A stretch of DNA of 64,000 nt from Ulota crispa (lineage: Eukaryota > Streptophyta > Bryopsida > Orthotrichales > Orthotrichaceae), in assembly GCA_963920765.1 (NCBI GenBank), contig OY987251.1:12527219-12591218 (forward strand), in the 5' to 3' direction. Below the pieces are notes generated by a model. It worked only from the letters and a program-made list of their open reading frames with translations. It did not search any database and was not told where the DNA came from. This document shows positions 19,913-63,168 of the stretch, piece after piece. The position numbers and the translations under genes are program-made. Every line of letters starts with the position of its first letter. Positions within the stretch are counted from its first letter, which is position 1.

Positions 19913-20701
19913 TTAATCCCTAAAGGACCAAAGAGCCCAATATGGTCAAATGGGGTTCTTGGAGGTGTAAAAGTAGACAAAAAAGGCATCAAATTCTCAA
20001 GTTTTGGTTTGCCACTCAAGTCCAAATGGAGCTAAAAGTTCAACAAAACTTTTAGATTGGCTTATTATTCCTTGAGGCCTCAAGACTTTGCACCCAAACA
20101 TTTGAATTTACTATTGTTAATATTAAAATTATTAGTGGGAGTGTATATAGGCATTATACATTGCATTGTGGATGGAAGAATTTTTGGATGGGATGGGTTG
20201 AAAACCCACACTCTCATGTATAGGGGAGAAGGTTGGTGATGTGTCACTTTCTTTTCTCTTGATTGGGCAAGGTATTTGTAGCTCTAATGTAGAGAGCCGG
20301 CTAAATCTACTTACTTTGAATGACCATAAGTTTTGGAGTTTTTATCCATTTGAAGAGTTTTTCTTCCATCAAGTATAGCTAGACATGGTCTCATGGGATC
20401 AACCATTAGGTCATTTTTTTTTGGGAAAAAATCACATCAAAGTCCAAAATCCATAATGTGAACTGCTACCCAAATGAACAAATATGAGATTCTCAACGGT
20501 GGGGATTTTGCAAATTTACTTGGATTTGAAATTAGACTAGCCTTGAACTTTTGGTATATAATTGGGTGTAGAATGACCAGTTTGGATTGTGTGAATACTT
20601 GTTCAACTTTCTAAAAATTGAAGGAATGTGTTGAACTCAGGTTCCATATTAGAGGTATGCTAAATTTCACAGCAAGACACTTAGGGGTTAATCATTGTAA
20701 A
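19913..20701. mobile_element. TTAA-bounded element, 789 bp (subfamily with 37753)
   Basis: TTAATCCCTAAAGGACC at the left, GACACTTAGGGGTTAA at the right. It is closely related to 37753-38529 along its whole length (for example CACACTCTCATGTATAGG). No intact frame. Confidence 0.82.
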
Positions 20702-21935
20702 CATATATATATTTTAAACTAACAATTTTAAGTTTGCCTTGATTAGATTGCAGGAGTTAAACAAGGGAGTGGTTTGCATATTAGGATGCTCAACTTGTAC
20801 TCCAAGGAGTTCAATTTGCATTGTTAGAGTTAAAACTGCAACCATCGTGAATTTCATCAAGAAATTCAATAAATGTGCTCTTTACAATTTTATTCATTAT
20901 AGAGCACTGAGATCAAGACTAGCCAAGTTTGTTGTGATGAATTGCAAATTTTATTTATTCCTCATTTGCTTCTTCTTCACATTTGATACTTGCAATTGTC
21001 ACCTTTTACAAACTCGCCCTTCATCTTCATAAGTCTTGAATTCACAATGAGTAATTTTTTTGTTCTTTTCAAAGTCCATATGTCCTTTGAAACTATTTGG
21101 AGTTATGCAATTAGGCTTTTCAACATTGACACCTATAGTCCCAACCCTTACATGTATGCTCACATTGTTGGTATTCACTATTGGTTGCTATGGTGGCCTT
21201 GTTTTGGATGAACTTGGCAATGAGCCTATTGTTTGAAATGCTTGCCAAGTACGCCAATTGTTTTATTGCAAAGAAATATTATTTTAGAATATTGTTGGAA
21301 CAATCAACAGTTAATTAAAGTTAATCTTCCTTAATAGTATCAAATAAGATCTAGTCACAAATGGTTGATTAAGAGTCATAGAATCTTGCCACAAATGGTT
21401 CAACACACTCCAATTTCATTCAAAAGAGCATTAAGGTTGTTTATGAATATCTATATAGTGACTTGTCTTTCTAAGGTGCTACAAAGTTATTCAAATTGAT
21501 TTGATTTTGACTAATTCTAATAAGGGTTGTGCAGACATCTAACATTCATTGACTTATTTATAGCATGAAACCCTTGACATCCATTAACATGTCTGTCATG
21601 TGCAACCCATTGTAAACATCCTAAGACATCAAAAGTTTGAATTTTTTACCTTGAGGTAAAATTGCAAATGTTGTCCTAGTTTGCTTTGCCATTAGCCTAA
21701 TTCTATTTGTTATTTGCAACAGATCTAAAAATAACAAAGAACAAAAACAAATTGAAAAAACCAAAAACTTATGTTTGTCATTTGCCAAATTTTGTCTTTG
21801 GCTTGGCACCTTAGCTATGATATCAAAAGGATGTTTTTGCCAAAGGCATAAGATTTACAACAACTTAAATGTGCAAAACACTTGTTATTATGCATGCAAT
21901 AATCTCAAATTTGCTAGTAAACGAGCACAAATGTG
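20702..21935. other. Region without recognised gene
   Basis: Short frames only (60-97 codons), none with a domain. No clear terminal repeats. Confidence 0.5.
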
Positions 21936-22169
21936 TTGACCCCTAAACATCTGAGTGTGTCACTCCGACCAGTACAATACGGGGTATTTTCCTTGTATTT
22001 GGAATGGATCCACACCTCTACTACATTTGAGACCAACAAAGAAGTTGGAGAGTAGATCAATGCAGTTCTAATTAGCTACTTTAGATCCCAAATTAAAATT
22101 TCTTATTGGTAGCAAATGACAATTATACGTCAACATATATACTATGCCCTATGGACATTTAAGGGTTAA
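21936..22169. mobile_element. TTAA-bounded MITE, 234 bp
   Basis: TTGACCCCTAAACATC at the left, GACATTTAAGGGTTAA at the right. It is one of three close copies (44900, 45693) sharing CCACACCTCTACTACATTTG and AACAAAGAAGTTGGAGA. The left TTAA has changed to TTGA. Confidence 0.82.
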
Positions 22170-22192
22170 AACATAATTTCCAATTCCACAAA

Positions 22193-22519
22193 TACAAGAA
22201 AAACTTTACGACTACCCTTGAAGTATGCCATATTTGTATAGATACCCCTGATTTTTCTAAAATTGCACAAATATCTGTGGACCATAATTTTTAGGCTTTT
22301 GTTCTATTGTGCAATAATGCCACTTCTTTCTCCCTTATTCGCACATTGCTTCTTTTTTTGTTCTGTTGCACTCTTTACTTTCACATTGATCATGAAATAT
22401 TATGCATAACAAAATAAACGCCTAAAAATTATGATTCAAGGATATTTGTGCAATTTCTGAAAAACCAGGAGTACCTATAAAAATATAGAAAACTTCACGG
22501 TATTCATATAGTTTTCCCT
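22193..22519. mobile_element. Inverted-repeat element, family of 11021
   Basis: Shared words with 11021 include GCACAAATATCTGTGGACC and GCCTAAAAATTATGATTC. The ends are GAAAAACTTTACGACTACCC-like and GTATTCATATAGTTTTCCC. Confidence 0.68.
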
Positions 22520-22617
22520 AAATACAACACATCTTAATTCTCCAATCCCAATATTTAGAGGGCTTCATTACTAAAAGAAAATTCAAATGCAACAGAAAGC
22601 AAAGCACACATTCTTAG

Positions 22618-23254
22618 TTGACCCCTAAAGGACCCTGAGGACAGAATGTGTCCTTGACTAATTTTTGAAGTTAAATAAACCCTAAACCAGATTACTATTT
22701 TTAATAAATTTATTTTTGAAGTTTAGTTTTAGCTTCAACAATCTGATTTTGCAAATGATTGACTATGGTTTTTCTATTTAAGATTGTGTGCATGGGTTGC
22801 AATCTTGACTTTATGTAATGCTGAGGGCTCTTGGGAATGAGCCTCAAATATACTAAATCTTTGAGAAAAAGTCATCTTAGAAATTCATTTAAAAAAATTG
22901 TAGAATAGATTTTGACAAGTCATAAATTGATTGGGGTTATGCATGTTAAGCCCTTTAACCTCATGTTTTTTTGGAGACCAAATTTTTAAATTTGACATGT
23001 GAAAAGAAATTTGAAAGACTCCAAATCACTTTCACAGTTTTAACACCCTCGTGATCAAGCATTATAAAAATATCAATCCATAAGAGATCTTGTTGTGTTT
23101 TCTTTTCTAATGTGATCTCTAACATGTCTAGTTTGAATTTATACAGTTACAATTCAAAAAGAACTGATATAACTTTATCAAAATGTTGGCTTTTTGTTCA
23201 AATTATAGATAATTCCTAGAAACTCAAGAAATTCCAGGGTCCTTTAGGGGTTAA
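22618..23254. mobile_element. TTAA-bounded element, 637 bp
   Basis: TTGACCCCTAAAGGACCCTG at the left, CAGGGTCCTTTAGGGGTTAA at the right: 15 of the first bases pair. The interior is unlike the other subfamilies. Confidence 0.8.
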
Positions 23255-23473: not shown

Positions 23474-23720
23474 TTAACCCCTAAAAAATGTTGTTGTTTT
23501 GTATACGAACTACCGTGTTGTATATGGATGGGATATTTGGATAGCATGTGAATCCCATTGGAGTTGTAAATTTCAAGCAAAGTTAGAAACATAATACTAA
23601 TCAACTAGGATTTTTTGGGGAATTTCTTACATTTGTTGTAAAATTTTTTTTTCAAGTACTAAATGGTTCTCCTACAAATACATGCAACACTTTTGGTAGG
23701 CAACATCCTGTAGGGGCTAA
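23474..23720. mobile_element. Possible TTAA-bounded MITE, 247 bp
   Basis: TTAACCCCTAAAAAATGTTG at the left, CATCCTGTAGGGGCTAA at the right. The size is like the other small members, but the ends are less well matched and the right site is CTAA. Confidence 0.45.
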
Positions 23721-24772: not shown

Positions 24773-25121
24773 TAAGGGCATCCCCAATGTAACTGTAATA
24801 CAGCACACATGGAGCTTATATTGCGTTCCTGGTGTTCATTCCCCGGTGAGTCTCACTTTCCCCTCTAAACTGGAGAATCGACACCTGTAAAAACTTTCTA
24901 AATACAGATATTTTGGACACATGTTGCAACTACACATACATAGAGGAAAATGAGACTCACCGGGAATAAACACCGGGAATGCAATATAAGCTCCATGTGG
25001 CACGTCAAAACCTGACCGCACATATCAACGGCCACGAGATCACGAGATCCTGATCTGATGGCTGTTAATATGTCAGGCCAGGTTTTGGCATGCTATATTA
25101 CAGTTGCATTGGGGATGCCTC
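24773..25121. mobile_element. MITE with TAAGGGCATCCCCAATG ends, 349 bp
   Basis: The left end TAAGGGCATCCCCAATGTAA and the right end GTTGCATTGGGGATGCCTCA are inverted. Inside, GGAGCTTATATTGC ... GTGAGTCTCA returns in reverse at 24949-24999, so the left half is itself a hairpin. Confidence 0.72.
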
Positions 25122-26103: not shown

Positions 26104-26107
26104 AGCT

Positions 26108-27293: not shown

Positions 27294-27590
27294 GTAGCCA
27301 TTAACTCCTAAATGTTTGAGATCTTTTTGAGCTTCTACGAATTTGCTCTAAATTGAACAAAAAGCTAGCATTTTAATAAGTTCTATCAAAAATATTTAAA
27401 TTCTAACCGTACAAATTCAAACTAGATATGTTAGAGATCACAGTAAAAGAAAATACAACAATATCACTTATGGATTGAAAGATTACAATGTTTGATCATG
27501 AGGGTGTCAAAATTGCAAAAACAACTTGAAGTCTTTCAATCTCTTTTCACATGTTGAATCTATATAATTGGTCACCAAAAATATACAAGG

Positions 27591-28517
27591 TTACCCCCTA
27601 AAGGCCGAAGCCCTTTTTTGTGTGAAAGTCACTCAAAATTACCACTTTTGGGAGAATAAGTAGAATGGTAGGAAAAAAAGTTTTTTTCCAAAAATCCAAC
27701 CATAAGATCTTGCCCTGGACTATGGGAGGTACTTTTGGTGAAAAAAGTTAGTTCATTCTAGATATAGAGGAGTGAGATATTGACATCCAAAGTGAAAAAA
27801 AAGTTTTTTACCTGCTACCCAAAAGCTTTAGAAGCCTTTGACCACTCCTATATCAAAAAAATTGCTCTACGCAAAACTAAGGTTTTTTTTTCCCATGTAG
27901 AAGACCAAGTTAGGTATGTGTGGGAGAATTTTCAAATGAACTGAAGGTGTGAATCATACTTTGTAAAATCTTGCAATGCTTTGAGGTCATGAAATTTGCA
28001 TGTACACTAGGCAAAATTGGAGGATTTATGTAAAGTTCAAAAATTTGAATTATGTTAATCCAAATGGTAAAACCCAAGGAATCTTAGTCTACTACAAGTT
28101 GGGGAAAAAAAAGTTAAAAAACAAACACAGAAAGAGCTCAAAAAATTAAAGCACCAAATTTTACAAGGGGCAAAAGAAATGGAGGTTTGGGAATCTCCAA
28201 AAATGAGCACTTTCCACTTCACTCCCCTTTGCCCAAGTGTCCACACCTTGTGCCCACAAGGGCCGACCCTCCTTGGAGGCAACACCCACTTACAAAGAAG
28301 AGGGCTTGCTCAAATTGCCCCTTCATGCCTAGTTTCAAAAAATTCTTGGTAACTTCTTCATTGAAATGTTAGAATGAAGAAAAGATATGATGCTTAGGTC
28401 TTAGAATTCCACAGCTTCAAGAAAAGTTTCAAAAAACCACGAAAACTTATTTAACTATAGGTACATGCCCAAAATCCAAATGTGCCTTGAGGGGACAATT
28501 CAGCCTTTAGGGGTTGA
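27591..28517. mobile_element. TTAA-type element, about 927 bp
   Basis: The left end TTACCCCCTAAAGGCCGAAG (TTAA site altered) and right end CAGCCTTTAGGGGTTGA. The first 350 bp matches 58980-59330 closely (CCAACCATAAGATCTTGCCC, CTAGATATAGAGGAGTGAGA). The frames inside are by chance. Confidence 0.75.
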
Positions 28518-29730: not shown

Positions 29731-29880
29731 TTAACCCCTGAACGGCCCTAGGGAGCTGAACTACGGGACCATATTTTTTGAAAATACGCTTGCAATCGAA
29801 CTGCTAAACAACGCATTTGGCTAGATTAGTATACGGTGGACATACGGCCACAGAGGGTGTTTGGGACGTTTAAGGGTTAA
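29731..29880. mobile_element. TTAA-bounded MITE, 150 bp
   Basis: TTAACCCCTGAACGGCCCTA at the left, GGGACGTTTAAGGGTTAA at the right. The start closely matches 60781. It is the smallest member and is directly followed by a pogo-type MITE. Confidence 0.78.
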
Positions 29881-30194
29881 GGTAGGAGCACCCATAAGTG
29901 TCAGTGTCCCCATAACTGTCACTTTTGAAATCTTGGAAAATCTGTGGAAGTGAATAGATTTAATGACAAGAATGTACAACATGTGAACATGAATTCCTAA
30001 AAGTGATTATGGGTGCAATGGTAGTTTGCTCTTTAAAAATTCATAATTTATTCTCACAGTACCCAAATAATACATTTGAAAGTGCAAACTCTTTTTTTTT
30101 TGTTCCTAATAGGATCCTATAATCTACTAGATGTTTATTAATAGTCATCATGTTTAAAAACCTTAGTTTGACGTATATGGGTGCTCCTACCTTA
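29878..30194. mobile_element. pogo-type MITE, 317 bp
   Basis: Both ends read TAAGGTAGGAGCACCCATA in inverted orientation, with TA borders. The left border coincides with the TTAA end of the preceding element (29731-29880), and the right border with the start of another MITE (TAGAGCATTTCC). The interior is unrelated to the transposase gene but matches the copy at 32924. Confidence 0.8.
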
Positions 30195-31095
30195 GAGCAT
30201 TTCCACCTGTTGGACCAAGCCGGCCAAACAATAGGGCTTGAGGCTTGAAGTTTCATCTAAAATCTCCACTGGTGGCTTGCTCATAGACACGGACTAAGGT
30301 GTTCCCGCACGCTCACATGTAGGTGTACAAAAAAAAATTAGCGAGCTTGAATCTTGGTGTGGGTCCTAATTTGAAAAAGTGTGACCTCTCATGTCCCAAT
30401 TACAAGCGCTAGAACAGCCCCTTGTTGCTTGACCCCTTGGCTGCTTGACTCCACCACCTCTAGCTCTACACACATGGTAGGCAAAGAGCATCTATATTCT
30501 TTTTGGCGTCTCATTTTCCTTGGGCCCCTGTGGAGATTCCCTAGCTCGATGAGCAAATATTTGACGATTATCCCTGCTCAACACCCATTTGCAAGTTGCT
30601 TGTTGCCTGGACCAGTGGAGATGCTCTCAAAATCCTCTCAAGTCACTTTGTCCTACCATGTTTAGCAAGACCCTTTGAGACACTATTCATCCTAAGTTTA
30701 GTGAATTTATCCTTTACTTTCCTTGATAAATGGACAGTTTATTCTTTATGGGATGTGTTGGAGTGCAAGACTACTTTTTTGAAAAGCATGGGTGGAGATC
30801 AAAGGGCTTGAAGGCTAGTCAAAACAGATGGAAAACTTTGAAAGAGCTTGGATTGGTACATAACATTGTCAACCAAGCGTGGAGCTACTCCTCCATGTGG
30901 AGGTATAATTCCCCCTAGATACCTAGGGGGAATAAATTATAAATCAAGGTCACTAAGTAGTTGGGCACAAACATCCCAGCTAATCAGTGGCCTTGATTTA
31001 TAATTTATTCCCTCCAGGGATCTAGGGGGAATTATACCTCCACATGGAGGGATAGCTCCAGACCCGATTAACAATGTTGTATAAAGATGCTCTTA
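30193..31095. mobile_element. MITE-like element with TAGAGCATTTCCACC end, about 0.9 kb, with a nested fold-back
   Basis: It starts TAGAGCATTTCCACCTGTTG and ends AAGATGCTCTTA. A second inward copy of the end (CCAGTGGAGATGCTCTC) lies at about 30612-30629, so it may be two fused copies. The segment 30655-30860 is related to 50630-50810, which also follows an AGAGCATCTCCACC start. It contains the palindrome at 30880-31060. Confidence 0.5.
30880..31060. mobile_element. Near-perfect palindromic fold-back element, 181 bp
   Basis: The left arm GGAGCTACTCCTCCATGTGG ... AAATCAAGGTCACT returns in reverse as TGGCCTTGATTT ... CCACATGGAGGGATAGCTCC. Each arm is about 75 bp with few mismatches, around a 30-bp spacer. 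Each arm itself holds small hairpins (CCTCCATGTGGAGG, CCCCCTAGATACCTAGGGGG). Confidence 0.75.
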
Positions 31096-31815
31096 GATAG
31101 ATTCACCCTGTGAACATGGCAATATTTTTAGAATTGCCGGTCCTTTGGTGTCCACATTTTGGTAATTATCAATGGAAGAACTAATTCATATTGGTCTAAA
31201 TTTATTAGAACTGAGAGGAATTGGCTTCATTTTGCCAAAAAAAATGCTTTTGTTATGAACTTATTTATTTGTTTGACCCTCAAAAGCCTATTGTCCCTAA
31301 AAGACACAAAATGGGTTTTGAGCAAGCTTGTCCTATTGGGATTTTTGACCAATTGATTTGAGTTTTATTTCTCAAATAGAGTTTGCAAGGGTTACGCGGT
31401 AGTACAGTTTTTATGGAAGTCAAATTCACATTTCAAAAGTTATTGGTAATTTATGTGCTTTTTTTGTTTGAATGACAGGCCAAGCATGTCAAATATTGTT
31501 GACTTCTCTCAAGGGCCACCAATGAAGGCATGACCCTTCATTGGAATGTTCCAAATGCAATAGTGTACTAAATAAATTCATTTTTATATTCAATAGGTGT
31601 TTGAGGTTTTTTTTATTTTTTTTGTGGTTGTTAGTAAAGTCAAAAACTTCCAAATTATCATTGGGATTTTTTATTTTCAAAAATCACCATTAGAAATTTG
31701 GTTTGCAAAAGACCTTAGTGTAGTGAAATTTTCAAGCAGATGTTTGCAATGCATGCTCATGAAGGAGGTGTTCCTAGTCTTTATTGGTCAAGAAAACTTG
31801 TAGAAATATGCTCAA

Positions 31816-31967
31816 AATGCATTATTCATTAAATTGGGAAAAAATGACATTTTGGGACTTTTGGATTTTTTGTTTTTTTAAGAGTATTCATTGAATACTC
31901 ATTAAAAATATATAAATTCAAAAGTTCCAAAATGTTGCTTTTCCTAGTTTAATGAATAATGCATTTT
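31816..31967. mobile_element. Short MITE with ATGCATTATTCATTAAAYTRGG ends
   Basis: AATGCATTATTCATTAAATT and its inverted partner AGTTTAATGAATAATGCATT bound 150 bp, with further pairing (ATTTTGGGACTTTT / AAAAGTTCCAAAAT). It is related to the family at 18741 and 60013. Confidence 0.65.
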
Positions 31968-32925
31968 AACCACTAAAGGACCAATTATCCGTTCAACAGA
32001 CACTTGATAATTTGGATAGGGTCATATGAAGTTAATTTTTATTGGATGTTTTCAAAATTGTTACATAAGATGTAAATATGTATCTCCCATGTGAAAATGT
32101 AATGTTTTCCCTAATTGAATGTCAAATTCAAACATTATGTTGCCCAAATAATTTTGGGTAACTCAAGCAATTTGGGCATCTTTAAAAAACCTTATGCTAA
32201 AACTCTCATGAACTTTTCAAATTTGGCATGCATGTAACTAATAAAATATGGTATATGATTTTCAAAAAAAAATGAGCTCTCAAACCATATTCTAAGAGGA
32301 GTTAAACTTTGTTTACTATGTCCTTGTTGTTTCAAGAAGAAAAAAAATCTTCTAACTTCAAGCACTATTATCTTGCAATTTGTAACTTCAAAGTTCTTGA
32401 GACTTTTTTCACACATTTCAATTTTTTTCCTCTAACTTTTCTTGGTTCAAATTTCAATTAAAAGACCTCCTAATAGCACAAGAAATTATGAAAGAATGCC
32501 TAGTGTATTGCCAATCCACTTAACCTCTTTGCATGGCACGGTGATTTAGAATAAACTACTTTCTACATTTGCTTTTGAAAATTTCATGAGTGAGTCTAAC
32601 ATCATAAGCTTATGAATAGTCAAAAACCTCATTTTTGTGTAGAGCAAAAGTTTTACTCTAGGAGGGTTCAAAGTCTATTGACCTTGTTTTGCAGGAATGA
32701 ATAAAAGTTGTTTTTCAGACTTCAAACATTATAATCTTACAATCCAAGTTATCAAATGGGCTGGAATTTTTTTCACACATTGGTTCAAATGTTTAACACA
32801 TGTTTGTGCGGTTGAAAGTCAATGAAAACAAAACAAAAAACAAAATCAATTTTGGACAATGCACTAAAAGCTGGCAGTGTATGAAATTTTTCTCTCAAAA
32901 AATACCCTTGGTCTTTTAGGGACTA
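31967..32925. mobile_element. Probable TTAA-type element, about 959 bp
   Basis: TTAACCACTAAAGGACCAAT at the left, CCTTGGTCTTTTAGGGACTAA at the right with a diverged site. The length is that of the 930-950-bp subfamily. The body is poorly matched to the others. Confidence 0.5.
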
Positions 32926-33217
32926 AGATAGGAGCACCCATAAACGTCAAACCAAGGGTTTTGAACATGATGACTATTAATAAACAAGTAGCATATTATA
33001 GGCTTCTATTAGGAACAGAAAAAAATGAGTTTGCACTTTTGGATGTATTATTTGGATATTCTGAAAATAAGTTGTGAATTTCTAAAGAGCAAAGTGCCAT
33101 TGTACCCATAACCACTTTTAAAAATTCTTGTTCACATGTTGTACATTCTTGTCATTTCATCTATTCACTTCCACAGATTTTTCAAGATTTTAGAAGTGAT
33201 AGTTATGGAGACACTGA
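32924..33217. mobile_element. pogo-type MITE, second copy of the 29878 family, one end lost
   Basis: It starts TAAGATAGGAGCACCCATAA and runs as the reverse-complement counterpart of 29878-30194 for nearly its whole length, up to the words GGAGACACTGACGCTGTCC. The second terminal repeat has been lost or diverged. It sits against an end (TTTTAGGGACTAA) that resembles the TTAA-family terminus. Confidence 0.7.
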
Positions 33218-35779: not shown

Positions 35780-36915
35780 CCTAAAGGTATGTTTCTTAGT
35801 TTAGAAAGGCATTTTGAAGTTTTTTGACTTGTAGTTGTAAAATCATTACTAAACATTGACAAAAAATTGTAATCATAGGATCTTGAATTTCAAGGCTTCT
35901 AGATGATGCCACCAAAAAAAGTCTTAAAAGAAGTCATGCAGATGTTAAGATATTTGTGATTAAATGTGGATGTAGAAATTTTACTGGCTTTTTTGGAGCT
36001 ACCCAAAAATTGTTATGCAAAATGACAACTTTGTGTACAAAATTGGGAAACAACTATTTAATTCAAAATTAATGTTAATTGTTGTTGCTTCAAAACTAAT
36101 GACTCCCCTTCCAAATCCATGACCATAATTTCACAAATAAGCTTGTATTACAATGCAACTGCCAAAGAGCTACCACTTAACCCCTAAGCGCTCAATCGAC
36201 CATTTTCTAGTCACTGCTTGTTTTTTGCGGGCTTCCTGAGATGAAAAAAAATCTATTTTAAAAAACTTAAAAAATCCCTAAATAGAAAATCAAGTCTACT
36301 TTCCAACCAAAGTTGAATCATGTCAATCCAAGTTAACTCCATCAAGGAGAATTTTTCAAAGACAAACACTTCAATATTTGCTAGTGTTATAAAATTTACT
36401 ACTTTGGGAAACTAATGATTTTCTCTTCTTTGAAAAAATTGCATTTTTGAAGTTTACAATATAATGTATGTTTTTATTCAATCATACCAAATTTTTAAAT
36501 CTATGAATGAAATTTGTAATTTTGGTGAATATTAAATGTTAAATGCTTCTAAATTCATTAAATAAAAATCCAATTTTTTTTGAATGTTTGACTGTATGGA
36601 TAATTACTAAACATCATGATTCTTGTTTTCTCTTTTGAAGCAAACTTCATCAAAGTTACATAAGTATTATTTTATAACACATCTATATTTTGCCCTTACC
36701 CCCTTGGGTGTTTAGGGGTTAATACAAATAAAATGTCTAACTTCAATTATTGACCATAAACTATTATGAAGGAAAGATAATTCATTGATTCACGAATGAA
36801 TTTGAACATGTATAACAAAAACATTCCAAGTGAAATTAGCCTAAAAACACAATTGGATTTTATTAGATGATGGATTTTCAATGGAAGGGCCCTCACTACC
36901 CAAGGGAGTGCCCAA
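35780..36915. repeat. Dispersed repeat, copy interrupted by a TTAA element
   Basis: 35780-36176 and 36723-36915 match 10010-10590 as one colinear stretch (shared TTATTAGATGATG, CCTTCCAAATCCA, ATTTGTGATTAAATG-like words). The gap holds the 546-bp element. The repeat class is unknown and no coding signal is seen. Confidence 0.75.
36177..36722. mobile_element. TTAA-bounded element, 546 bp, inserted in a dispersed repeat
   Basis: TTAACCCCTAAGCGCTCAAT at the left, GGGTGTTTAGGGGTTAA at the right. The flanks 35780-36176 and 36723-36915 together match 10010-10590, where the corresponding point is a single TTAA (10406-10409). This defines the element borders and its target independently. Confidence 0.87.
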
Positions 36916-37225
36916 AGGAGTGCCCAAGGGAAATCTTCACTTTATTCTCAACTTGTTGCCCATCTTTCCAATGTGGTAGCTCATCATAGGCTCTTTAGTG
37001 ACACTAATTGTCACACTTTTTGATTGCCAAGATATATGCTTGTAACTTAGCTTTCACCAAAAAAAAATTGAAATGTAGTATGGAGGACATTCAAATTGAA
37101 CATTGAAGCTAACTCTAGACCACAACTTCTTTAGAAAACAAATTTAAAAAAATCCAAATATGTGCCATTAAAAAGACCTCAAAGTTTCTTGAACACCCAA
37201 ATTTGGTACCTTGGCATTTAGGGGT

Positions 37226-37275
37226 TAAGGTAGGAGGCTTGTAAACCAACCATCTAAACAAAAGATGAAGTTTGT
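37226..37275. mobile_element. Fragment of a TAAGGTAGGAGGCTC-type MITE
   Basis: TAAGGTAGGAGGCTTGTAAA followed by CCAACCATCTAA matches the reversed right end of the copy at 61080-61401 for about 45 bp and then diverges. It abuts the TTAA end at 37225-37228. No partner end was found. Confidence 0.5.
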
Positions 37276-37752: not shown

Positions 37753-38529
37753 TTAACCCTTGAAGGACCAAAGAGCCCAATATGGCCAAATGAGGTTCTT
37801 GGAGGTGTAAAAGTAGACAAAAAAGGCATTGCATGCTCAAGTTTTGGTCTACCACTCAAGTCCAAATGGAGCTAAAAGTTCAACAAAACTTTTGGGTAGG
37901 ATTGTTGTTCCTTGAAGCCACTACATTTTGCACCCAAACAATTGAATTTATTGTCTTTAATATTAAAACTATTAGCGGGAGTGTATATAGGCATTATACA
38001 TTTCATTGTGGATGGAAGAATTTTGGATGGGATGGGTTGAAAACCCACACTCTCATGTATAGGGGAGAAGGTTGGTGATGTGCCACTTTCTTTTCTCTCG
38101 ATTGGGCAAGGTTTTTGTAGCTCTAAAGTAGTGAGCTAGTTAGATCCACTTACTTTGAATGACCATAAGTTTTGGAGTTTTTATCCATTTGAAGAGTTTT
38201 TTTTTCCATCAAGTATAGCTAGACACATCTCATGGGATCAACCATTAGGTGATTTTTTATTTTGGGAAAAAATCACATCAAAGTCCAAAATCCATAATGT
38301 AAACTGCTATCCAAATGAACAAATATGAGATTCTCAACGATGGGGATTTTGCAGATTTACTTGGATTTGAAATTAGACTAGCCTTAAGTTTTTGTGTTAT
38401 AGTTGGGTATAGAATGACTGGTTTGGATTGTGTGAATACTTGTTCAACTTTTTGAAAATTGAGGGAGTGTGCTGAAGGTTCTATATTGGAGGTATGCTAA
38501 ATTTTCACAGCAAGACGCTTAGGGGTTAA
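37753..38529. mobile_element. TTAA-bounded element, 777 bp (subfamily with 19913)
   Basis: TTAACCCTTGAAGGACC at the left, GACGCTTAGGGGTTAA at the right. It is in the same orientation as the copy at 19913. The short frame at 37833-38078 is not conserved in that copy. Confidence 0.82.
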
Positions 38530-45133: not shown

Positions 45134-45692
45134 GAATTACAAGATGCAAGAGTAGAAGATTTGGAGTTGCAAGTCCATGAAATTAGATTTCCTTCAATTT
45201 GTAATATCTAATAATCAAAAACTCCCATCTTCAATTGCCATGGTGAAGACTTAGGATTTGAAAAGAATTATCTAGGTACAAATTCAAATTAGTGTTGGGA
45301 TCATACGGTTAGATGTTCAAAGAAAAACCCCCAAAACTCATTATGTGGTGTTTTTCTAATAAAAACACAATTTTGGCAATTTTGGTCTCGACATTGCCAA
45401 TTGCTTTACATGTTGGTTTTAATCTTGGGCTGCCCAATCGATACAAAGGGAATTGTTCTCATTCTTTCAGATGCCGCTATGTATTTTCACAATGTCCAGT
45501 TTCAACAGTTCAATTTAGTTGGAATTCTTTTATTAGTCTTTTTGTATGATTTTCAAAGAAACCTTTGCAAGTATTATAAAAAGAGTAAAAATTTACTTCT
45601 CTCCAAAATTTGAGAATGTCCTTTCAAATATTTATGATTTTAGTAAACGTATAAACACAATATCAGAAAAAAAATCCTTATCATGACAGAAT

Positions 45693-45933
45693 TTAACCCT
45701 TAAACGACCATAGGGAATAGGGAATAGTATATACGCTGACGTGTAATTTTTATTTGTTATCAATAGGGAATTTTAATTTGGGATCTCAAGTAGCTCACTA
45801 AAATTGCATTGATCTATTCTCCAACTTTTTTGTTGGTCTCAAATGTAATAGAGGTGTGTATCAATTCCAAATACAAGAAAAATATCATGTATTGTTCTGG
45901 TTGCAAAGGGCCTTTCGATCGTTTAAGGGTTAA
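45693..45933. mobile_element. TTAA-bounded MITE, 241 bp, opposite orientation
   Basis: TTAACCCTTAAACGACCATA at the left, CGATCGTTTAAGGGTTAA at the right. It is the reverse-complement of the 44900 copy, 560 bp away. TTAA is intact on both sides. Confidence 0.85.
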
Positions 45934-46477: not shown

Positions 46478-47220
46478 TTAACCCCTAAAGGCCCAAGCAC
46501 TGTTTTTTGGCAAAATAGTGATTTTGGGCAGCTCACTACAAGTGGATGTTTCATTTTTTTTCTTTGAAAATTTCACACACGATGTGCCCAAGGAGTAGCT
46601 TTAAGGTTCAAAAATTTTCATAACTTTTGACTTCATGGTTCAAAAGTATTGCATGATTTGTTGTGTTTTTTGCACTCCTGGCAGCCTGGGCAGCTCATAA
46701 AACTTCTTTAAAAATGACTTCTTTTTGTTTTTTGTTATAAATTGGTTCTTTAGACTTACGTGTACGTGGGAAGCTTTGAATCATTCAATTTTGATGAACA
46801 AAATGAAAATTATGAGAAGTATTAGTTTGTGGGTAGGTATGGAGTCTCTCAAAACCATACCTACCCGCAAACTAAAACTTCTTGTAACTTTTGTTTCATT
46901 AATTGAAATGAAAAGTTCAAAGCTTCCCACATACATATAAGTCTAAAGAACCTATTCCAAAAAAAATTCAAAAAAATGTCATTTTTAAAAAAGTTTTATG
47001 AGCTATCCAAGCTGCTCAGAGTACAAAAAAAACAACATGCCATGCAATAACTTTTGAACCATGAAGTCAAAAGTTATGAAAATTGTTGGACCTTCAAGCT
47101 ACTCCTTAGGCACATCATGTATGAAAATTTCAAAAAAAAAAAGATAAAAATTCCACTTGTTGTGAGTTGCCCAAAATCTATTTTATCCTTCGAAGGGATA
47201 AGTGGGCTTTTAGGGATTAA
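46478..47220. mobile_element. TTAA-bounded fold-back element, 743 bp
   Basis: TTAACCCCTAAAGGCCCAAG at the left, GTGGGCTTTTAGGGATTAA at the right. The two halves are inverted copies over about 350 bp each: AACTTTTGACTTCATGGTTC returns as GAACCATGAAGTCAAAAGTT, and the centre is GGTAGGTATGGAG / ACCATACCTACC. It would form a single long hairpin. Confidence 0.88.
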
Positions 47221-48339: not shown

Positions 48340-49190
48340 TCAACAATAAAGCACACCAATCAGTGCATTTAGGTTGCCTTAACATTTAGGTTGCCTTACC
48401 TTGGCAAAATGCAACTCTTTATATGTTATAGTAACTCTTGGTTCTATCTAAAGTTCTAATTTCCCTACTATTGAATTTAATGTGCCCCATTATTTATCAC
48501 AGTAATTAACCCTTAAAAGACAGATGGATCACCATGGCTTGCCCTGTCTATAACATTCTACAGTGTTTTGCACATGGGCACTAGTAGTATTGCTTCAAAA
48601 AGTTGGAAAAGTCAATAGTGCATGGTGCCCTCATGAAAATTGCAAGAAGGGCAGCTTGGGAGCTAACACCATGTATCACAATTTGGGTTACAAAATAAAA
48701 TGAATGTATCTCAAGAGGAATTTTTTTGCCTTCCATGATGCACTACTCTTTTATGATCACTTCTGAAAAAAATCAGATCAAAATCAATCTTTTTCTGGGA
48801 TACATAGTTTTTTTCGGAGGCAACGGACGTTTTTTGTCCGTGCCAACGTTTAAGAGTTAATGATGAAAGTTATAATAGTCTTGGTAAATATTGAAATAAT
48901 GTGAAATGCCTAAAAATTAGGATGGGCAACCTAAATACAGTTTTTGGTGTACACCAGATAATGTTTAGGTTGCCCCAAATTATATGTTGACCATTCTTGG
49001 ATTTCACATGATTTACAACTTGAACGTTGTTAATTTATTTTTTGACTACTTTGTAGTGGTTGCAAGGCCTTTTAAAATAAAATAAAATAACATTAATTAG
49101 TGATGGAAATTATTTTTACAGCAGTCGAAGAGTAAGATATGAGAATGTAGTGTGGGGCAACTAAATGCACTATTTGGTGTAGTTTATAAG
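48340..49190. repeat. Pieces of a GCAACCTAAATGCA repeat family
   Basis: GCATTTAGGTTGCC, GCAACCTAAATACAGTTTTT and GGCAACTAAATGCACTATTT recur here in both orientations, and again at 51050-51110 and 63600-63870. The 63620-63730 stretch matches 50970-51075 in reverse (CCTTGGAAAGTTACCTCAT). The element borders are not clear. One TTAA element (48506-48860) has inserted in this group. Confidence 0.5.
48506..48860. mobile_element. TTAA-bounded element, 355 bp
   Basis: TTAACCCTTAAAAGACAG at the left, CAACGTTTAAGAGTTAA at the right. The interior has no match elsewhere in the window. Confidence 0.7.
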
Positions 49191-51630: not shown

Positions 51631-52587
51631 GTTATACACAAAATCGTTTTAAATGGGATGAGTGACACCTGGCAGCAAACACATCCACTCTGAACGAGAA
51701 TCAATTGGTGAAAGACAAGCCTGGTGGATTTCGTACTCCCTTTTCCTGCAACGAAATCTTCGTTTCAATTGATTTGCCCCCCCCCCCTCCCCCCCTAAAA
51801 CCATTTAAAAATGATGAAATATCATAAAAATGCTGTACCACTTTGAGTCAGATAGATCGATTGCAATCTCTGGCACGGATGGAATTGCCAGGTGGCCGCC
51901 GGATGAAGAACGGCGGAAAAAAGTACCCTGTCGCCACCACTAAGTTTTACTTTACTTTAACCCCATCAGGACCAGGGGACTTTCCATTTCCAAAAAGATG
52001 AAGATCTGCTCAACAGTTTCGGACCGAGGATTTTGTTTGGGGGGAATTTTTGTGATAATGTTACCTTATTTTGACATTCATAACATTCAGTAGCCTGAAG
52101 AGAGGCTGCCTTTCCCTCTCTTCAGGTATCATCTACGGACTTCATCTTGACAAAAAAAAAAAAAAAAAAGGTGTTTTTTTTGTTTTTTCTCGACATGGCT
52201 GGCCCCCACATCAACATATGTGCACTAAATTGAGTCTCTTTTTCATAAATTCTTTAACAAATTCAGTCAAGTGTCCTCTTAACTACTGATGGGTGTGGAA
52301 TATTCCACATTTTTCAATTGGAGGGAGGGCAGGCTTGCTGAGTGCTACTGAATGTTATGTTGGGTAAAAAAATGGATGACATTATTAAGTTTCTCCCTCT
52401 CAATGAAACATTGAGTAAGTGAATGGTTGAATGAAAATTACTAATAATATTTAATCTACTAGACAAACGTGCACAGATGGAGGATTTTATGCAATTTTCC
52501 TTATTTGCACACGTTTGAAGGTGCTTGTTGCTTGACCAAGATAAATAATGCAACTGTTTTATATCCATTATTTTTTATCCCCATATA

Positions 52588-52997
52588 GGGAATTGATATA
52601 TGCACCACCTCTTTTTGACTATTCTACCACACCTACTACTGTATATATGGCAATTTTTACAAATAAAGTAGGTGCAAACCATAAGAATAATTTGAAAATA
52701 TAACATGACATAGAAGTGGCAACTTCTATTTTATTTTTTAGCTCCTAATCTTACTCATAGTGTCAATTTCAAAAAATCTAATTTAAAGTAAGCATAACTT
52801 AGATATTTTAATTGATACTATGAGCGGGATTAGGAGCTAAAAATCAAAATTAAAGTTACAACTTCGAGGTCAAGTTGTATTTTCAAATTAGTGATCTTTT
52901 ATGCATGATCCACACCTACTTTAATGATTGTAAAAAAACGTCATATATAGTAGGTGTGGTAGAATAGTAAAAAGGGGTGGTACATATATCAATCCCC
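52588..52997. mobile_element. Fold-back MITE of the GGGAATTGATAT family, 410 bp
   Basis: GGGAATTGATATATGCACCA at the left and TGGTACATATATCAATCCCC at the right. The arms carry TACCACACCTACTACTG and its inverted copy, and AATTTGAAAATATAAC with partner. Flanks are TATA-rich. Confidence 0.75.
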
Positions 52998-53195
52998 TTA
53001 TATATGTACTAGTTGTTGGCGCTTGCTACTTTATACATTCACCATCAAAATTTGACTAGGATTTCATATGTTATATAGAATGCATAGTTAAAATTTGAAT
53101 ATATTTTCAAACTATAGTTATGTGATGGTATTTCAAAGACCAAAAGTGTGATAATACAAGAGCCAATGTTCTTTTAGTAGTATAATATATATATA

Positions 53196-53584
53196 GGGAA
53201 TTGATATTTGCACACCCCTCTAAGAGGTAAATTATAGATTTCTACCATCAAAAAGCTGAATTTGAGAAATTTGAATTCAGATTTGGACTTACAGACCCAT
53301 GATTTAGTCTAGAACCATAAAAAAAGGTTGCAATTGAACAATACTCAATGAAAAAGCTTAGCTAGGGGAAAAGTGTTACTTTTAAATTTGTTTGTAAAAA
53401 AAGATAAGCATTTTCATTGGGTGTTATTCATTTGCAACATTTTTATGGTTCTAGACAAATCATGATCTTTGAGTCCAAATTTGAATTCAAAATTCTCAAA
53501 TTCAATTTTCCATGGTAAAAATATATAATTTACCTCCCAAAGGGTGTGCAAATATCAACCCCAGGTGTGCACATATCAATTCCC
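53196..53584. mobile_element. Fold-back MITE of the GGGAATTGATAT family, 389 bp
   Basis: GGGAATTGATATTTGCACAC and GTGTGCACATATCAATTCCC form the ends. The arms match the copies at 1 and 3462 (GATTTGGACTTACAGACC and partner). Confidence 0.78.
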
Positions 53585-53916: not shown

Positions 53917-54850
53917 TTAACCCCAAAAAGACGGTTGTCCCTTCAGGGACAAGTGGGAGTTCGGGCATGTACCTTTGGATAAGCTACTTTGTGTGATTTT
54001 CTAAAAAACTTATTCAATGTGGGGAATTCAAGAATCTAAGTGGGCATCTAATTTTTTCCTCACTCCAACAATTATTGAAGAAGTTACACAAGAATTTCTG
54101 AAAATTTGGAGAGGACTGCCCATCTGGGCAGTCCAAACACTTCTTTAAAAATTAATTTTTTAAAAATAAAAATTTGAAATTGGTTCTTTGGATTTTTTAA
54201 TAGGTGAGAAGCTTTGAATCATTCAATTTCAATCAATGACATGAAAGTTATGAGGAATTTTTGTTTGCGGGCAGTTATGGAATCTCTACTCTAAAATAAA
54301 CTTTGAAGTCCTTTATTTTACTCAATTTCCAATATTTTGGAAAAACAATTGTACCAATGGAAGTAGATTGTTTATCACAACATTATCACCATTGGGATTA
54401 GCATTTTTCATTTCCATAATTAAAGTTTCAACAATTTAGTGTTCTGACTCATTCTCTACTTCTTTTTACTTACTATTTTTTCCCATGTGTTGTATAGTTC
54501 CAATTGATTTGAAAATTCTTTGACACATACCTAACTTGATCTCCTACATGGGAAAAATAAAGCGCAAAGTTGCGTATAGTAACTTTTTTGTTGTAAGAGT
54601 GGTCAAAGGCTTCTGAAATTTTGGGGCAGCATGAAAAAAAACTTTTCTTTTCACTTTAGATGTAAATATCTCACTCATGTCCATCTGGAATGACTTTATT
54701 TTTTTCCACAAGTACCTAATCCACTCTAGGGCAAGATCTTACGGTTGGATTTCCCAAATTTAAAAAAGAAATTACCTTCTTACTAACCCCCCAAAAGTGG
54801 CAGTTTTGAGTGATTTTCACTTTCAAATGGCTCGGTCTTTTAGGGGTTAA
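53917..54850. mobile_element. TTAA-bounded element, 934 bp, reversed relative to 58980
   Basis: TTAACCCCAAAAAGACGG at the left, CGGTCTTTTAGGGGTTAA at the right, with TTAA on both sides. Shared body words with 58980 include GCCACTTTTGGGG and ATCTTGCCCTAGA in reverse. Confidence 0.83.
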
Positions 54851-54851
54851 T

Positions 54852-55094
54852 TAAGGTAGGAGGCTCTAATTTGAACTAGGGCTTTAATTTGGTTCACTTC
54901 TGGGAAGGGCCAACATGTTCCTTCAAATATTTATTACTGTCATTGATGAGTTAGTTGGGCTTAGCAAGTTTACCTAATATGCTAAGCCCACTTAACTCAT
55001 CAATGATAGTAATAGATGTATGAAGGAACATGTTTGCCCTTCCTAGAAGTGAACCAAAGCAGAGCCCTTGTCCAAATTAGAGCCTCCTACTTTA
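54852..55094. mobile_element. Fold-back MITE with TAAGGTAGGAGGCTC ends, 243 bp
   Basis: Nearly the whole element is one inverted repeat: the left arm (GGCTCTAATTTGAAC ... ATTACTGTCATTGATGAG) returns in reverse from about 54980. TA borders are present. A nested small hairpin, GGGCTTAGCA ... TGCTAAGCCC, forms the loop. It directly follows the TTAA end at 54847-54850. The transcript of such an element would fold like a miRNA precursor. Confidence 0.75.
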
Positions 55095-55462
55095 TTGTGA
55101 AAATGTGGCATGCATTCTACCTCTGTTCTCTACATAAGGTTTAGCCACAATCATTTCTTGCTAGTCAAGTAGCAACTTGGTGGCAAAATCTCCATAATGC
55201 AAAATCGTTCACACAATCTCTAATTGGGCTACATGTTAGCAAAATCTCCTTGTCCTTGAGTCACACTATTTGAAATAATATATTTATGACATTGTAACTC
55301 ACAATATAAAGAATCATCCTAATCTAGTGTAAACTATTTCAATAGTGCACCTCTCATATTCATTTTTGTTTTAATTAGTGCAAAATGCACCAATTAAAAA
55401 ATCTTGTGTAAAAGTTACAAAGAATATAAAAAACAAAACAAAAACAAAAAATCAAATTTTAA

Positions 55463-55637
55463 CACTAGAAGAGGATTGTTAGAAAATTGCGTTTCACTTA
55501 ACAAAAAACATGAAGTTGATTGTGTTGAGTTTTCCGTTTTCAACATAATTTTGTATTGGAAACAGAGAATTCAACACAATCAACTTCACATTTTTTGTTA
55601 AGTGGAACGTGATTTTTTTGATAGTTTTCTTCTAATG
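55463..55637. mobile_element. CACTA-type fold-back MITE, 175 bp, with TAA target duplication
   Basis: It starts CACTAGAAGAGGATTG and ends TTTTCTTCTAATG. TAA flanks both sides (55460-55462 and 55638-55640). The long arms include CATGAAGTTGATTGTGTTGA and its inverted partner. Confidence 0.8.
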
Positions 55638-55871
55638 TAAAAGTCAAATGAAAATTTTAAGTATTCACATATACTTGACCTATTTAAGCTCGTTTTGTTT
55701 TCAAATTTTGAACATTTAGTCCAAAAGGTATTGATTAGGATTTAAAGGTTTGAAGAAACTACACCTAAAACCAATCTGAAGCGGTTCCTATTATTAAGCT
55801 ATATTTACCTTATCTTTTGTTTGATCTTGTTGATAATTGAAAGAGTGAAAGAGTGCTCTATGTATATTCTT

Positions 55872-56334: not shown

Positions 56335-56341
56335 ATATTCT

Positions 56342-57078
56342 TAGAGCATCCTCAATCCACAACTGGCATTGGAGCTCAGCAACACTACAAGCAGAACTTT
56401 GTTGCGTGGCCACTAGCTTCACAAGCAACACACCGGCCCATACAAGGCAATGCACACTGGCTGTGCAAATTCCACACTTTACTTTCGTCATGCTTTTTTG
56501 ACAAGATCTCTATTCTTGACTTGCATATTAGTCATCATTTTACTAACCAACAATATATAGAGCAATATGAAGTACTCTTCATGGTTGCTAAACTACCAAA
56601 TATAGCTCAAGTTTTGTTGTCCCCTTTAAGATGACGTCTCACATGCTAGATGCATTGGACTAGGTTTACCGTTCTCAAGCCAGCATCCACAGTGAGTGTT
56701 GTTGCAGGGTCAATATAAGCTTAAGATAGAAGGCTCGAAAACTGTCCAGGCTCTAAAATTGCTCACCCTCCAAAATGTTCTCACCTTGTACATGTATATT
56801 TTCAAAAATTTCCAAAATGTACAAATGGTGTACATTTGAAGAGGTGAGCGGTTATAGAGCCCTATGCCACTTCAGCTTTGAAATTTCATAACTAATTCTA
56901 CAAAACTCCAAAAATTATGAAATAACTTGGGTTAAATGTCAATTCTTCTTGTCTTTCAAGAAAATTTTACTGAAAAATATTTCAAAAAGTTCTACCTCCC
57001 CAAAATTCAGTTTCAGCCCTTAGATGATCGGTTTCTGAGCCTCCTACCTTAGTACCTGCTGGACTGAGGATACCTTTA
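56342..57078. mobile_element. MITE with TAGAGCATCCTCAATCC ends, interrupted by a younger MITE
   Basis: The left end TAGAGCATCCTCAATCCA and right end GGACTGAGGATACCTTTA face each other. Without the insert at 56722-57051 it would be about 400 bp. Its interior shares GTTTTGTTGTCCCCTTTAAG and GCATTGGACTAGGTTT with the copy at 43295. Confidence 0.7.
56722..57051. mobile_element. MITE with TAAGRTAGRAGGCTC ends, 330 bp, nested in another MITE
   Basis: It is a sister copy of 61080-61401, with ends TAAGATAGAAGGCTC and TAAGGTAGGAGGCTC and TA borders. It splits the host MITE at 56342-57078, so it is the younger of the two. Confidence 0.78.
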
Positions 57079-58979: not shown

Positions 58980-59918
58980 TTAACCCCTAAAGGACCAAGC
59001 CCTTTTTTCAGTGAAAGTTACTGAAAACTGCCACTTTTGGGGGAATGAGTACAAAGGTAGGAAAAACAATTATTTTTGGATATCCAACCGGTAGATCTTG
59101 CCCTAGACTATGAGAGGTAATTGTGGAAAAAAATTAGCTCATTCTAGATATAGAGGAGTGAGATATTGACTTTTGAAGTGAAAAAAATAGTTTTTTTCCA
59201 TGCTGCCCAAAAATTTCACAAGCCTTTGATTGCCTCTAAATAAAAAAATTGCTCTACGCAAATGTGAGGTTTATTTTTCCCATGTAGAAGACCAAGTTAG
59301 GTAAGTGTGGGAGAATTTTCAAATGAATTGGAGGTGTAAATCATATTTTGTAAAATCCTGCAATGTCGTAAGGACATCAAATTTGCATATACACTAGGCA
59401 AACTTGGAGGATTTATGTAAAATTGTGAAATGTGAATTACTCTAATCCAAATGACGAAAACCAAGGAATCTTAGTCTACTATAGCAAGGAAAAAAAAAAG
59501 TCAAAAAACAAATTCACAAAGAGCACAAAAAGTATAGCACCAAAGGCAAAAGGAATGGAAGTATGGGAGTTCCGTACCTGCCCGCAAACTAAAACTTTTC
59601 AATCATAAATTGGAATTGAATGATTCAAAGCTCCCCACATATGTATAAATCTAAAGAACCAATTTCAGATTTTTATTTTGAAAATATGTTATTTTTAATA
59701 AAGTTTTTGGCTGCCCGATCTCCACCTTTTTGCAGAATTTCATGCATAACTTCTTCAATAAATGTCGGAATGAAGAAAAAATTAGATGCCCACATAGGTT
59801 TTTGAATTCCTCATCTTCCATAAAAGTTTCAAAAAATCATACAAAGTAGTTTAGTTGTAAGTACATGCCTGAAATCCCAACTGTCCCCCGAGGGGATAGT
59901 TGGTCCTTTAGGGGTTGA
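58980..59918. mobile_element. TTAA-bounded element, 939 bp
   Basis: TTAACCCCTAAAGGACCAAG at the left, TTGGTCCTTTAGGGGTTGA at the right. It shares its body with 27591-28517 and, in reverse, with 53917-54850. Confidence 0.85.
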
Positions 59919-60012
59919 ACAACATATCTTATTCTAGGAACCTAGTATTCATCTCTTTTGTCCATGAGTGTGACTTAGTTATGGTAATCTAGGGAGGAGT
60001 TTTTCAATCTAA

Positions 60013-60780: not shown

Positions 60781-61011
60781 TTAACCCCTGAACAGCCCGA
60801 ACGACCTTTGTGGCTGTATGTATGGTCGTATGTACAAACGTATTTGAGTTGTTTTAAGGGCTTTCCAATTTTTTTATACACCCATCATCATACAATCCTT
60901 TAATATGTATATTTGTAACAATTAATTTCCAGTTGATTCAAACTTTTGAGTATTGGTTGCAACTGTATTTGTTACCGTATCTCTAGAGTCCAAGGATCCT
61001 TTAGGGGTTAA
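60781..61011. mobile_element. TTAA-bounded MITE, 231 bp
   Basis: TTAACCCCTGAACAGCCC at the left, GGATCCTTTAGGGGTTAA at the right. Its left TTAA is shared with another GGGG end just upstream (60777-60780), so two termini meet there. Confidence 0.8.
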
Positions 61012-61079
61012 GCTCACCTCCACTGTACCATTGTTGTAACCTCATCCCAACCAGATTGAGGACTCCTCAAGGAGAGTAC

Positions 61080-61401
61080 TAAGGTAGGAGGCTCATAAAT
61101 CACCCAAGCTCTAAATTGCCCACCTTCTCAAATGTACCTCTTTTGTACATGTTTTTCATAGGTTTCAACAATGTACAAGTAGTGCACATTTGAGAAGGTG
61201 GGCGGTTTTAGAGCCTTACGCCATTTCAATTTCAAATTTTGTAACTAATTCCACAAAGCTCCAAAAAATATGAAACAACTTGGGTTAGAGACCAATTCCT
61301 ATTGTTTTTCAAGAAAAATTTATTGAAAAATATTTCAAGAAGTTTCACCTCCCCAAAATTTAATTTCACTTAGATGGTTGATTTATGAGCCTCCTACCTT
61401 A
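61080..61401. mobile_element. MITE with TAAGGTAGGAGGCTC ends, 322 bp
   Basis: Both ends read TAAGGTAGGAGGCTCATAAATC in inverted orientation with TA borders. Inside lies a second inverted repeat around the words CACCTTCTCAAATGTAC / GTGCACATTTGAGAAGGTG. It matches 56722-57051 over its full length. Confidence 0.8.
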
Positions 61402-61413
61402 AAACTACTTAGA

Positions 61414-61668
61414 ACACCATATTTGTTAAATTGGGAAAAAGAGTACAATTTGGGACTTCTGAAGGTTTTAGATGATCACCTAAAACCGAGCTCGCAGCAT
61501 TTTTTTGGTACACGTGCTCTCACTTGAAAGGAGGAATTTGTGAGGGAAAAAATCTTAGTGGCTCAAATTGAATCTGATACCTTCAAATCTGGTTTAAGGT
61601 AATTGTTTGGGTTTAAGGTGGAGTACAAAATCGTTCCCCCATTTTTCCCAATTTAACGAATATAGTGT
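61414..61668. mobile_element. MITE with ACACYATATTCATTAAATTGGG ends, 255 bp
   Basis: ACACCATATTTGTTAAATTG and CAATTTAACGAATATAGTGT are inverted. It is longer than the 119-bp copies, with extra internal pairing. Confidence 0.7.
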
Positions 61669-62214
61669 TTCAGACTCTAAATTCATCTCCCATCAAGAGA
61701 TATGTGACGTATTTTGGAAAAATCATCTGTAATAGTCATTGATATTCTTAAAAAAACGGTTATATGAACCTCCCAGCTTACCTCCCATGCTACAGGGAGC
61801 CAAAGATTATGTGTCCAAAGAAAAGTAGACTCCTTCTCTAAAATAAATCTCCAATATTGTGGTTATGTACGTTACCAGAATAAATCAGAGGTGGGACTGC
61901 CACTCTTGATTTGTTGGGATAGAAAGATTGCTAGTTTCACATAAATTTTGTGGACAAAAGGTCTTGTGTTGATTCTGCATGAAATTGCATTCAAATAATA
62001 ACACTCTCATACATTTTTGACTTCCACTCCATGTGAAACCTATAGACCCTCAATTACATCAGTGGTAGGAAATAAAGGTTTCTGGGTGGTTAAAATTTTA
62101 GGCAACATAATGCATTTAACCAAGTTTGAGTCAAAGTCATGGCCCATAGGAGTTGTGAAGTGAAACTTTTGAGCTCGTTGAACCAACATTTGGAGAGGAT
62201 TTTGACTTCACCGG

Positions 62215-62432
62215 TTAACCCTTGAAGGCCTGAACAACATTTTATTTTGGCAACATAGCAATTTTGAACATGTACTTGTGATTGGAGATTCTTCAAATAT
62301 TAGGCTAGAATTTAATTGAAGGCGGGACAAGGAGTGTTTTTCATACACACTAACTTTCATGACATTTGAAGTTATGAGTACAAAAATATGGCTAAAAATG
62401 TTTTTTTTTCCCAAGGCGGGCAGTTTGGGCAG

Positions 62433-62479
<47 letters not shown>

Positions 62480-63168
62480 CAAAATTTTGAAATTGGTTTA
62501 GGAGATTTATGTATATCGGAAATCTTTGAATCATTCCATTTTGATTAATGAGATGAAATTTATGAGGACTTTTTGTTTGTTAGCAATTATGGATTCTTTA
62601 TTCTAGAACAAATTTTGAAGTCTTTTATTTTACTCAATTTTTAATATTGTGAAAAAAATAAAAATAAAACCAAAGTATGTAGATTGTTTATTACAACACT
62701 ACCACCATTGGGACAGGCATTTTTCATTTTTGGAATGAAATTTTCAACAGTTTTGTGTTTTAAATCATTCTCTACTTCTTTTTATTCACTATTTTTTCCC
62801 ATATGTTTTGAAATTTCAAATGATTTCAAACGTTTTTGACATGTATCCTACTTAGGTGGAATAAGAAATCTAGAAAAGCACCACCCACATGGCCCTTTTC
62901 TCTTTTGATTTTCACTTTCTAATGGGTAACTGCCGAGTTTTTCACAAGACCCAAAAAATTGTTTTTGAATATCTAAACTCTTCTATTTTCCAATCCATGC
63001 AGTAGAAAATTCTAATTTTTGTACTACATCTTCCAAAACTAGTCTATTGCAAGACCCTACCATTACATAAACATAAAAGTATTTTTATTTTCAGATTTGA
63101 TTGATGTTCTAAAAATGGCAATTTTAGAGAGTTTTTGGTGAAAATGCAGCTGGTCCTAAAGGGGTTAA
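62215..63168. mobile_element. TTAA-bounded element, 954 bp, with an internal AT microsatellite
   Basis: TTAACCCTTGAAGGCCTGAA at the left, CTGGTCCTAAAGGGGTTAA at the right. It is related to 53917-54850 in the middle (TCATTCTCTACTTCTTTTTA). An (AT)n run sits at about 62437-62478. Confidence 0.8.
62437..62478. repeat. (AT)n microsatellite
   Basis: About 42 bp of AT repeats, inside the TTAA element at 62215-63168. Confidence 0.93.

Follow-up and report, generated by a model that had tools for sequence, protein, structure and literature searches.

A dense family of TTAA-bounded, piggyBac-like repeats with C-rich inverted ends in a 64-kb window

The copies and their boundaries

The window analysed here, a stretch of 64,000 nucleotides of contig OY987251.1 (coordinates are counted from its first base), harbours a dense family of short repeats that are bounded by TTAA and share C-rich inverted ends. 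A first-pass annotation had proposed such a family, and this is confirmed: all 18 positions that it listed hold a left end of the TTAA type with a right end facing it, the only correction being that 31967 should read 31966. We delimited 19 copies of 150-961 bp, counting an interrupted member at 27301, that add up to 11.1 kb (~17% of the window), a density that comes from this single 64-kb window and does not distinguish a local from a general share. Six of the 19 exceed 800 bp and lie above the typical limit for miniature inverted-repeat transposable elements (MITEs; limit from PMC12550479).

The bodies had been described as different from one another, which holds for five copies that stand alone; the other 14 fall in four clusters (of seven, two, three and two copies) built from links of at least 60 bp. 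Orientations are given below where one was assigned. Cluster I comprises seven copies. Its members include those at 58980-59918 (plus strand, 939 bp), at 27591-28517 (plus, 927 bp, nested; 80.7% over 777 columns to the 58980 copy), at 53917-54850 (inverse, minus, 934 bp; 77.2% over 697 columns to the same copy) and at 62215-63168 (inverse, minus, 954 bp; 78.6% over 365 columns to the 53917 copy). The 743-bp copy at 46478-47220 is mostly a fold-back, 46512-47184 matching its own reverse complement at 82%. Two further members are attached to cluster I by weak links (67-73% over 60-199 columns): 31966-32926 (961 bp, weak ends; 69% over 159 columns to the 58980 copy) and 2538-3457 (920 bp, weak left end; 66.8% over 199 and 70.5% over 95 columns to the bodies of the 53917 and 62215 copies). 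Cluster II pairs 19913-20691 (plus, 779 bp) with 37753-38529 (plus, 777 bp), which match end to end at 90.3% over 783 columns. In cluster III, the copies at 21936-22169 and 44900-45133 (both plus, 234 bp) are 86.3% identical end to end, and a third at 45693-45933 (inverse, minus, 241 bp) matches the 44900 copy at 88.8% over 215 columns. Cluster IV consists of 22618-23254 (plus, 637 bp) and of the left part of a relative at 27301-27594 (minus), which matches the inverse of the 22618 copy at 79.3% over 275 columns and is interrupted at GGTTAA by the 27591 element.

The five unclustered copies are 23474-23720 (247 bp), with inverted ends; 48506-48860 (355 bp); 29731-29880, which at 150 bp is the shortest and whose right TTAA adjoins an element of a second family with TAAGGTAGGAG ends (see below); 36177-36722 (546 bp); and 60781-61011 (231 bp), whose left TTAA is shared by the orphan right end found at 60784.

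Facing TTAA...TTAA pairs 100-1100 bp apart number 17 in the window, whereas 60 dinucleotide shuffles gave 0.05 on average and never more than 1; other orientations amount to 6 outward and 4 + 5 same-direction pairs. Eleven facing pairs were accepted as elements and six were dropped. Four of these six start from left ends that sit within a through-running repeat, at 18814 (one pair) and 60085 (three pairs). The pair 36177-37228 gave way to 36177-36722, given the empty site described below, and 44900-45933 was dropped because the end-to-end alignment with 21936-22169 places the end of the 44900 copy at 45133. A convincing left partner of their own was found neither for the right end at 37228 (37215-37228, minus strand, TTAACCCCTAAATG when read inward) nor for the one at 60784. 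Ends at 51957, 63507, 10014 and 18530, whose partners were not convincing, were left out; the one at 18530 may come from a relative of the 48506 copy.

The shared end and its target site

Over 39 recognised ends, which were partly picked for TTAA, the consensus reads TTAA-CCC[C/T]TAAANG, with the fourth motif base C in 29 and T in 10, and with C at position 12 in 29/39 and at position 13 in 24/39. The first base is C in 34 of the 39, and the first four bases are CCCC in 23, CCCT in 8 and something else in 8. The outer T is present in every one of them (39/39) and the flank is exactly TTAA in 32/39. Inside TTAA, the inverted ends are perfect over 16 bp in the 22618 copy and over 15 bp in the 58980 copy, while most others are imperfect or shorter.

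The window was also scanned blind to the flank with the motif CCCYTAAANGNCC, which itself derives from ends partly selected on TTAA. Allowing at most one mismatch there were 25 matches, of which 19 are preceded by TTAA, five by a one-base variant and one by unrelated sequence. Wherever such a match has TA at -3,-2, a T stands at -4 (21/21), the base rate of that outer T among all TA sites of the window being 32.7%. At up to two mismatches there are 57 matches, with TTAA in 27 and at least three of its four bases in 38, and the outer T is found in 29 of 31 TA cases; the exceptions lie at 10010, for which no convincing partner end was found, and at 1712.

The end motif occurs far more often than chance would allow. 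The 13-mer CCCCTAAAGGACC (up to two mismatches) has 17 matches where 0.80 are expected and where 100 shuffles reach at most 3. Likewise CCCCTAAAGG, again at up to two mismatches, matches 79 times, 27 of them immediately preceded by TTAA, whereas 200 permuted 10-mers match 26 times on average (maximum 61) with a mean of 0.165 TTAA-adjacent matches (maximum 5). A chance or simple-repeat artefact of AT-rich sequence might be suspected, since the motif is short and includes CCCTAAA. This heptamer is the plant telomere unit. Yet the shuffle and permutation controls, the repeat copies that stop at TTAA and the empty site make such an origin practically inconceivable.

The empty site concerns the element at 36177-36722. 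It sits in a repeat of which a second copy, at ~10024-10609 (plus strand), lacks the element. The joined flanks match this empty copy across the junction, at ~10400, with 73% identity over 267 columns, and the whole filled/empty alignment scores 447, whereas 100 shuffles stay at or below 65. At the insertion spot the empty copy reads TTTA. We conclude that this element has moved, because its empty site is found elsewhere in the window; none of the other junctions among the 19 tested gave a junction-spanning match. Next to the empty repeat copy, at 9998-10014, lies an orphan end ATAA-CTTCTAAAGGACC, possibly a decayed TTAA element. A second insertion can be read from the 27591 copy, which interrupts the relative of the 22618 copy: homology reaches the TTAA, where the relative without an interruption has GGTTAA. 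TTAA stands at both ends of the copies, in keeping with the target of piggyBac and of Kolobok alike.

Candidate transposases

The annotation had also stated that no transposase for the family lies in the window, and our domain search bears this out. A Pfam scan of bases 1-63002 in six frames (stops as X, E ≤0.05) found no DDE_Tnp_1_7, the piggyBac transposase domain, in segments cut every 9 kb, where a domain spanning a cut could escape. The sole transposase detected is a decayed one of pogo type on the minus strand (HTH_Tnp_Tc5 at ~41797-41985, DDE_1 at ~41074-41556). Its domains are flanked by inverted arms at 39797-39814 and 43279-43296 that match the ends of the TAAGGTAGGAG family, and they delimit a decayed pogo-type transposon of ~3.5 kb (39797-43296) with inverted ends TAAGGTGGAAGCACCCAT and ATGGGTGCTGCTACCTTA. 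Short TAAGGTAGGAG elements with the same type of end are seen at 29878-30194, 54852-55094, 56722-57051 and 61080-61401, and they look like non-autonomous dependents of this transposon. Since the gene lies between arms matching TAAGGTAGGAG ends, it is likely the source of the TAAGGTAGGAG family rather than of the TTAA-bounded one.

Still, a pogo or Tc1-mariner-type transposase could have moved the TTAA-bounded copies, if TA were what is duplicated, if the ends began with ACCCC and if TTAA were a mere strong preference. Such a gene, decayed, does exist within the window, a possible parallel to the pogo elements of land plants, which are reported to make up a single small clade, Lemi, found in 23 eudicots (PMC7386202). 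The two families are also physically close: four of the 13 listed TAAGGTAGGAG-family ends (29878, 32924, 37226 and 54852; a match at 44464 was excluded from the list) lie 2 bp from a TTAA element's right end, and when 13 TA sites were drawn at random 20000 times, no draw had four within 4 bp. Furthermore, two hand-made consensus strings of the ends resemble each other weakly, a score reached by 23 of 5000 shuffles. However, the pogo-linked family has a distinct end of its own, AGGTAGGAG, and the gene is enclosed by TAAGGTRG ends and not by CCCC; the apparent pogo ends of the window read TA-AGGTRG, as opposed to TTAA-CCCC. The TAAGGTAGGAG family is flanked by TA with an outer base that may be T, C or A, an internal contrast to the T at -4 that is fixed in all flank-blind cases against a base rate of 0.327, and free flanks are what a TA duplication would predict. 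Pogo families are described as duplicating TA, and Fot and Fot-like ones TAA or TAAA (PMC7386202). Taken together, we regard this origin as rather unlikely. Tourist (PIF/Harbinger) MITEs are similar to the copies in being small inverted-repeat elements at AT-rich targets, but their 3-bp TAA/TTA duplication (PMC10004981) does not account for symmetric CCCC ends that each adjoin TTAA.

Two other superfamilies that use TTAA, Kolobok and Sola3, deserve consideration. Sola3 has a TTAA target and GAG ends. For Kolobok, the TTAA target is documented (PMC6004289), the motif holds an inner YTAA-ANG reminiscent of TTAA-AGG, and in a Dracaena repeat table Kolobok is far commoner than PiggyBac (1,395 versus 38 entries; PMC6294377). 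Xenopus Kolobok T2-MITEs are likewise non-autonomous copies at TTAA, but they end in AGGRR and not in CCCYTAAANG (PMC6004289). More generally, Kolobok termini are purine-rich (RR/AGGRR; PMC6004289), whereas 31 of the 39 ends here are CCC followed by C or T. We also tried a Kolobok boundary at the inner TAA-AGG, but the empty copy has none of the outer CCCCTAA, and for this reason the inner TAA is not the boundary. A Kolobok or Sola3-type enzyme appears highly unlikely as the mover of these copies. An undescribed TTAA-specific superfamily, neither piggyBac nor Kolobok, would account for a commonest terminus, CCCC, that differs from the published piggyBac CC[C/T]T, and a literature text search for the end strings brought up, among the matches listed, no title on a transposon. 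There is no positive evidence for such a superfamily, while target and C-rich ends suit piggyBac, and we find it distinctly unlikely.

We think it fairly probable that the copies are old, non-autonomous, MITE-like cut-and-paste DNA transposons strictly confined to TTAA targets, and that the enzyme which moved them was most likely a piggyBac-type transposase whose gene lies elsewhere. As expected of MITEs, they are short, non-coding and repeated, with inverted ends and a target duplication. A piggyBac-type enzyme is favoured because of the TTAA target and the C-rich ends: the hallmarks of piggyBac are ends of 12-19 bp, a CC[C/T]T terminus and TTAA (PMC2872659), and the perfect inverted ends of the 22618 and 58980 copies fall in this range of lengths. 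The piggyBac-type CMITEs of corals, the first of which have inverted ends of 13-14 bp, are comparable in their TTAA duplications, short C-rich inverted ends and lack of coding capacity (PMC2872659). They differ in having CC[C/T]T termini where most ends here are CCCC, in a length of ~100 bp where ours reach 961 bp, and in bodies that vary less than the ends, which is the reverse of what we see; also, no cognate transposase was found here in the domain scan of bases 1-63002 (PMC2872659 for the CMITEs). Because the published terminus is exact in 8/39 ends and CCCC occurs in 23/39, we call the copies piggyBac-like and would not file them as members of piggyBac, the fit being good though inexact.

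Several observations weigh against this piggyBac-type reading. The inexact terminus is one, and the Kolobok count of the Dracaena table another. The superfamily would be read from traits of the copies, since its transposase is not seen in the window: there is good support for a family that targets TTAA and has C-rich inverted ends, as the annotation had it, and target and end type are the only traits that point from there to piggyBac. The length of the duplication is a further difficulty. Filled TTAA sites look alike under a 4-bp TTAA or a 2-bp TA duplication, and the empty site, a pair of 73% identity that does not fix the length, scores 139, 142 and 140 for one, two and four duplicated bases, slightly better for the two that a pogo-type enzyme would leave. 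Four bases are favoured because the outer T is invariant, which is the sole argument for that length. As for the nesting of the 27591 copy, homology is found on its left side only and the right side is unaligned.

On our reading, a transposase whose gene lies elsewhere in the genome would bind the CCCYTAAANGNCC ends, excise the element at TTAA and reinsert it into a new TTAA, whose four bases would be duplicated. The family is now decaying: cluster mates share 67-90% identity in matched stretches, and single bases are changed in several copies of TTAA.

Plant context and other features of the window

PiggyBac had been said not to be an ordinary part of seed-plant genomes, and for plants the literature is divided. 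In favour, a plant paper describes PiggyBac as confined to animals or other organisms (PMC4093653), and three plant repeat tables contain trace entries: 1,230 elements and 122 kb in the C-fern draft (PMC6890710), the 38 of Dracaena (PMC6294377) and a single one in Stipa (PMC8319324). Against it, a review lists PiggyBac as one of seven superfamilies of angiosperm MITEs (PMC10004981). A survey of MITEs in 207 plant genomes uses five main superfamilies and one special group, and the words piggyBac and TTAA are absent from its main text (PMC12550479). Our literature search, with subscription papers mostly outside it, recognised no report describing these ends or a dense TTAA family in plants, and a 23-base stretch of the 58980 copy has no exact match among viral contigs. 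It is conceivable, and we advance it tentatively, that a TTAA-specific lineage with CCCYTAAANGNCC ends, be it a plant branch of piggyBac or a separate superfamily, has come to fill a large part of a land-plant genome (~17% of this window) and has gone unnoticed, since surveys of plant MITEs work with five main superfamilies of which none is TTAA-specific. Should the host be a plant, as the annotation held and as the cap methyltransferase described below suggests, then a class of plant repeats is being labelled 'unknown', and one would have to ask where the transposase of so dense a TTAA family arose. The ends, for example TTAACCCYTAAANGNCC facing its inverse, make the family searchable in any host assembly.

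Besides the transposase, the Pfam scan detected a plus-strand mRNA cap methyltransferase (~13748-13888 and 15100-15246) and a single weak match to Zn_ribbon_LapB (E 0.027). At the gathering threshold, Rfam gives one match, a tRNA (RF00005, 23871-23942, minus strand, 59.3 bits), which may be a gene or a SINE and lies some 150 bp away from the 23474 element. At least 11 more stretches fold back on themselves, with 73-83% matches to their own reverse complements (1-400, 3519-3743, 3740-4033, 8609-8798, 24806-24999, 30862-31078, 31814-31967, 52583-53003, 53201-53558, 55458-55642 and 63270-63447). Finally, tandem repeats occupy 7899-8936 and 10550-10871, with units of ~80 and 150 bp and an array of a 23-bp unit.

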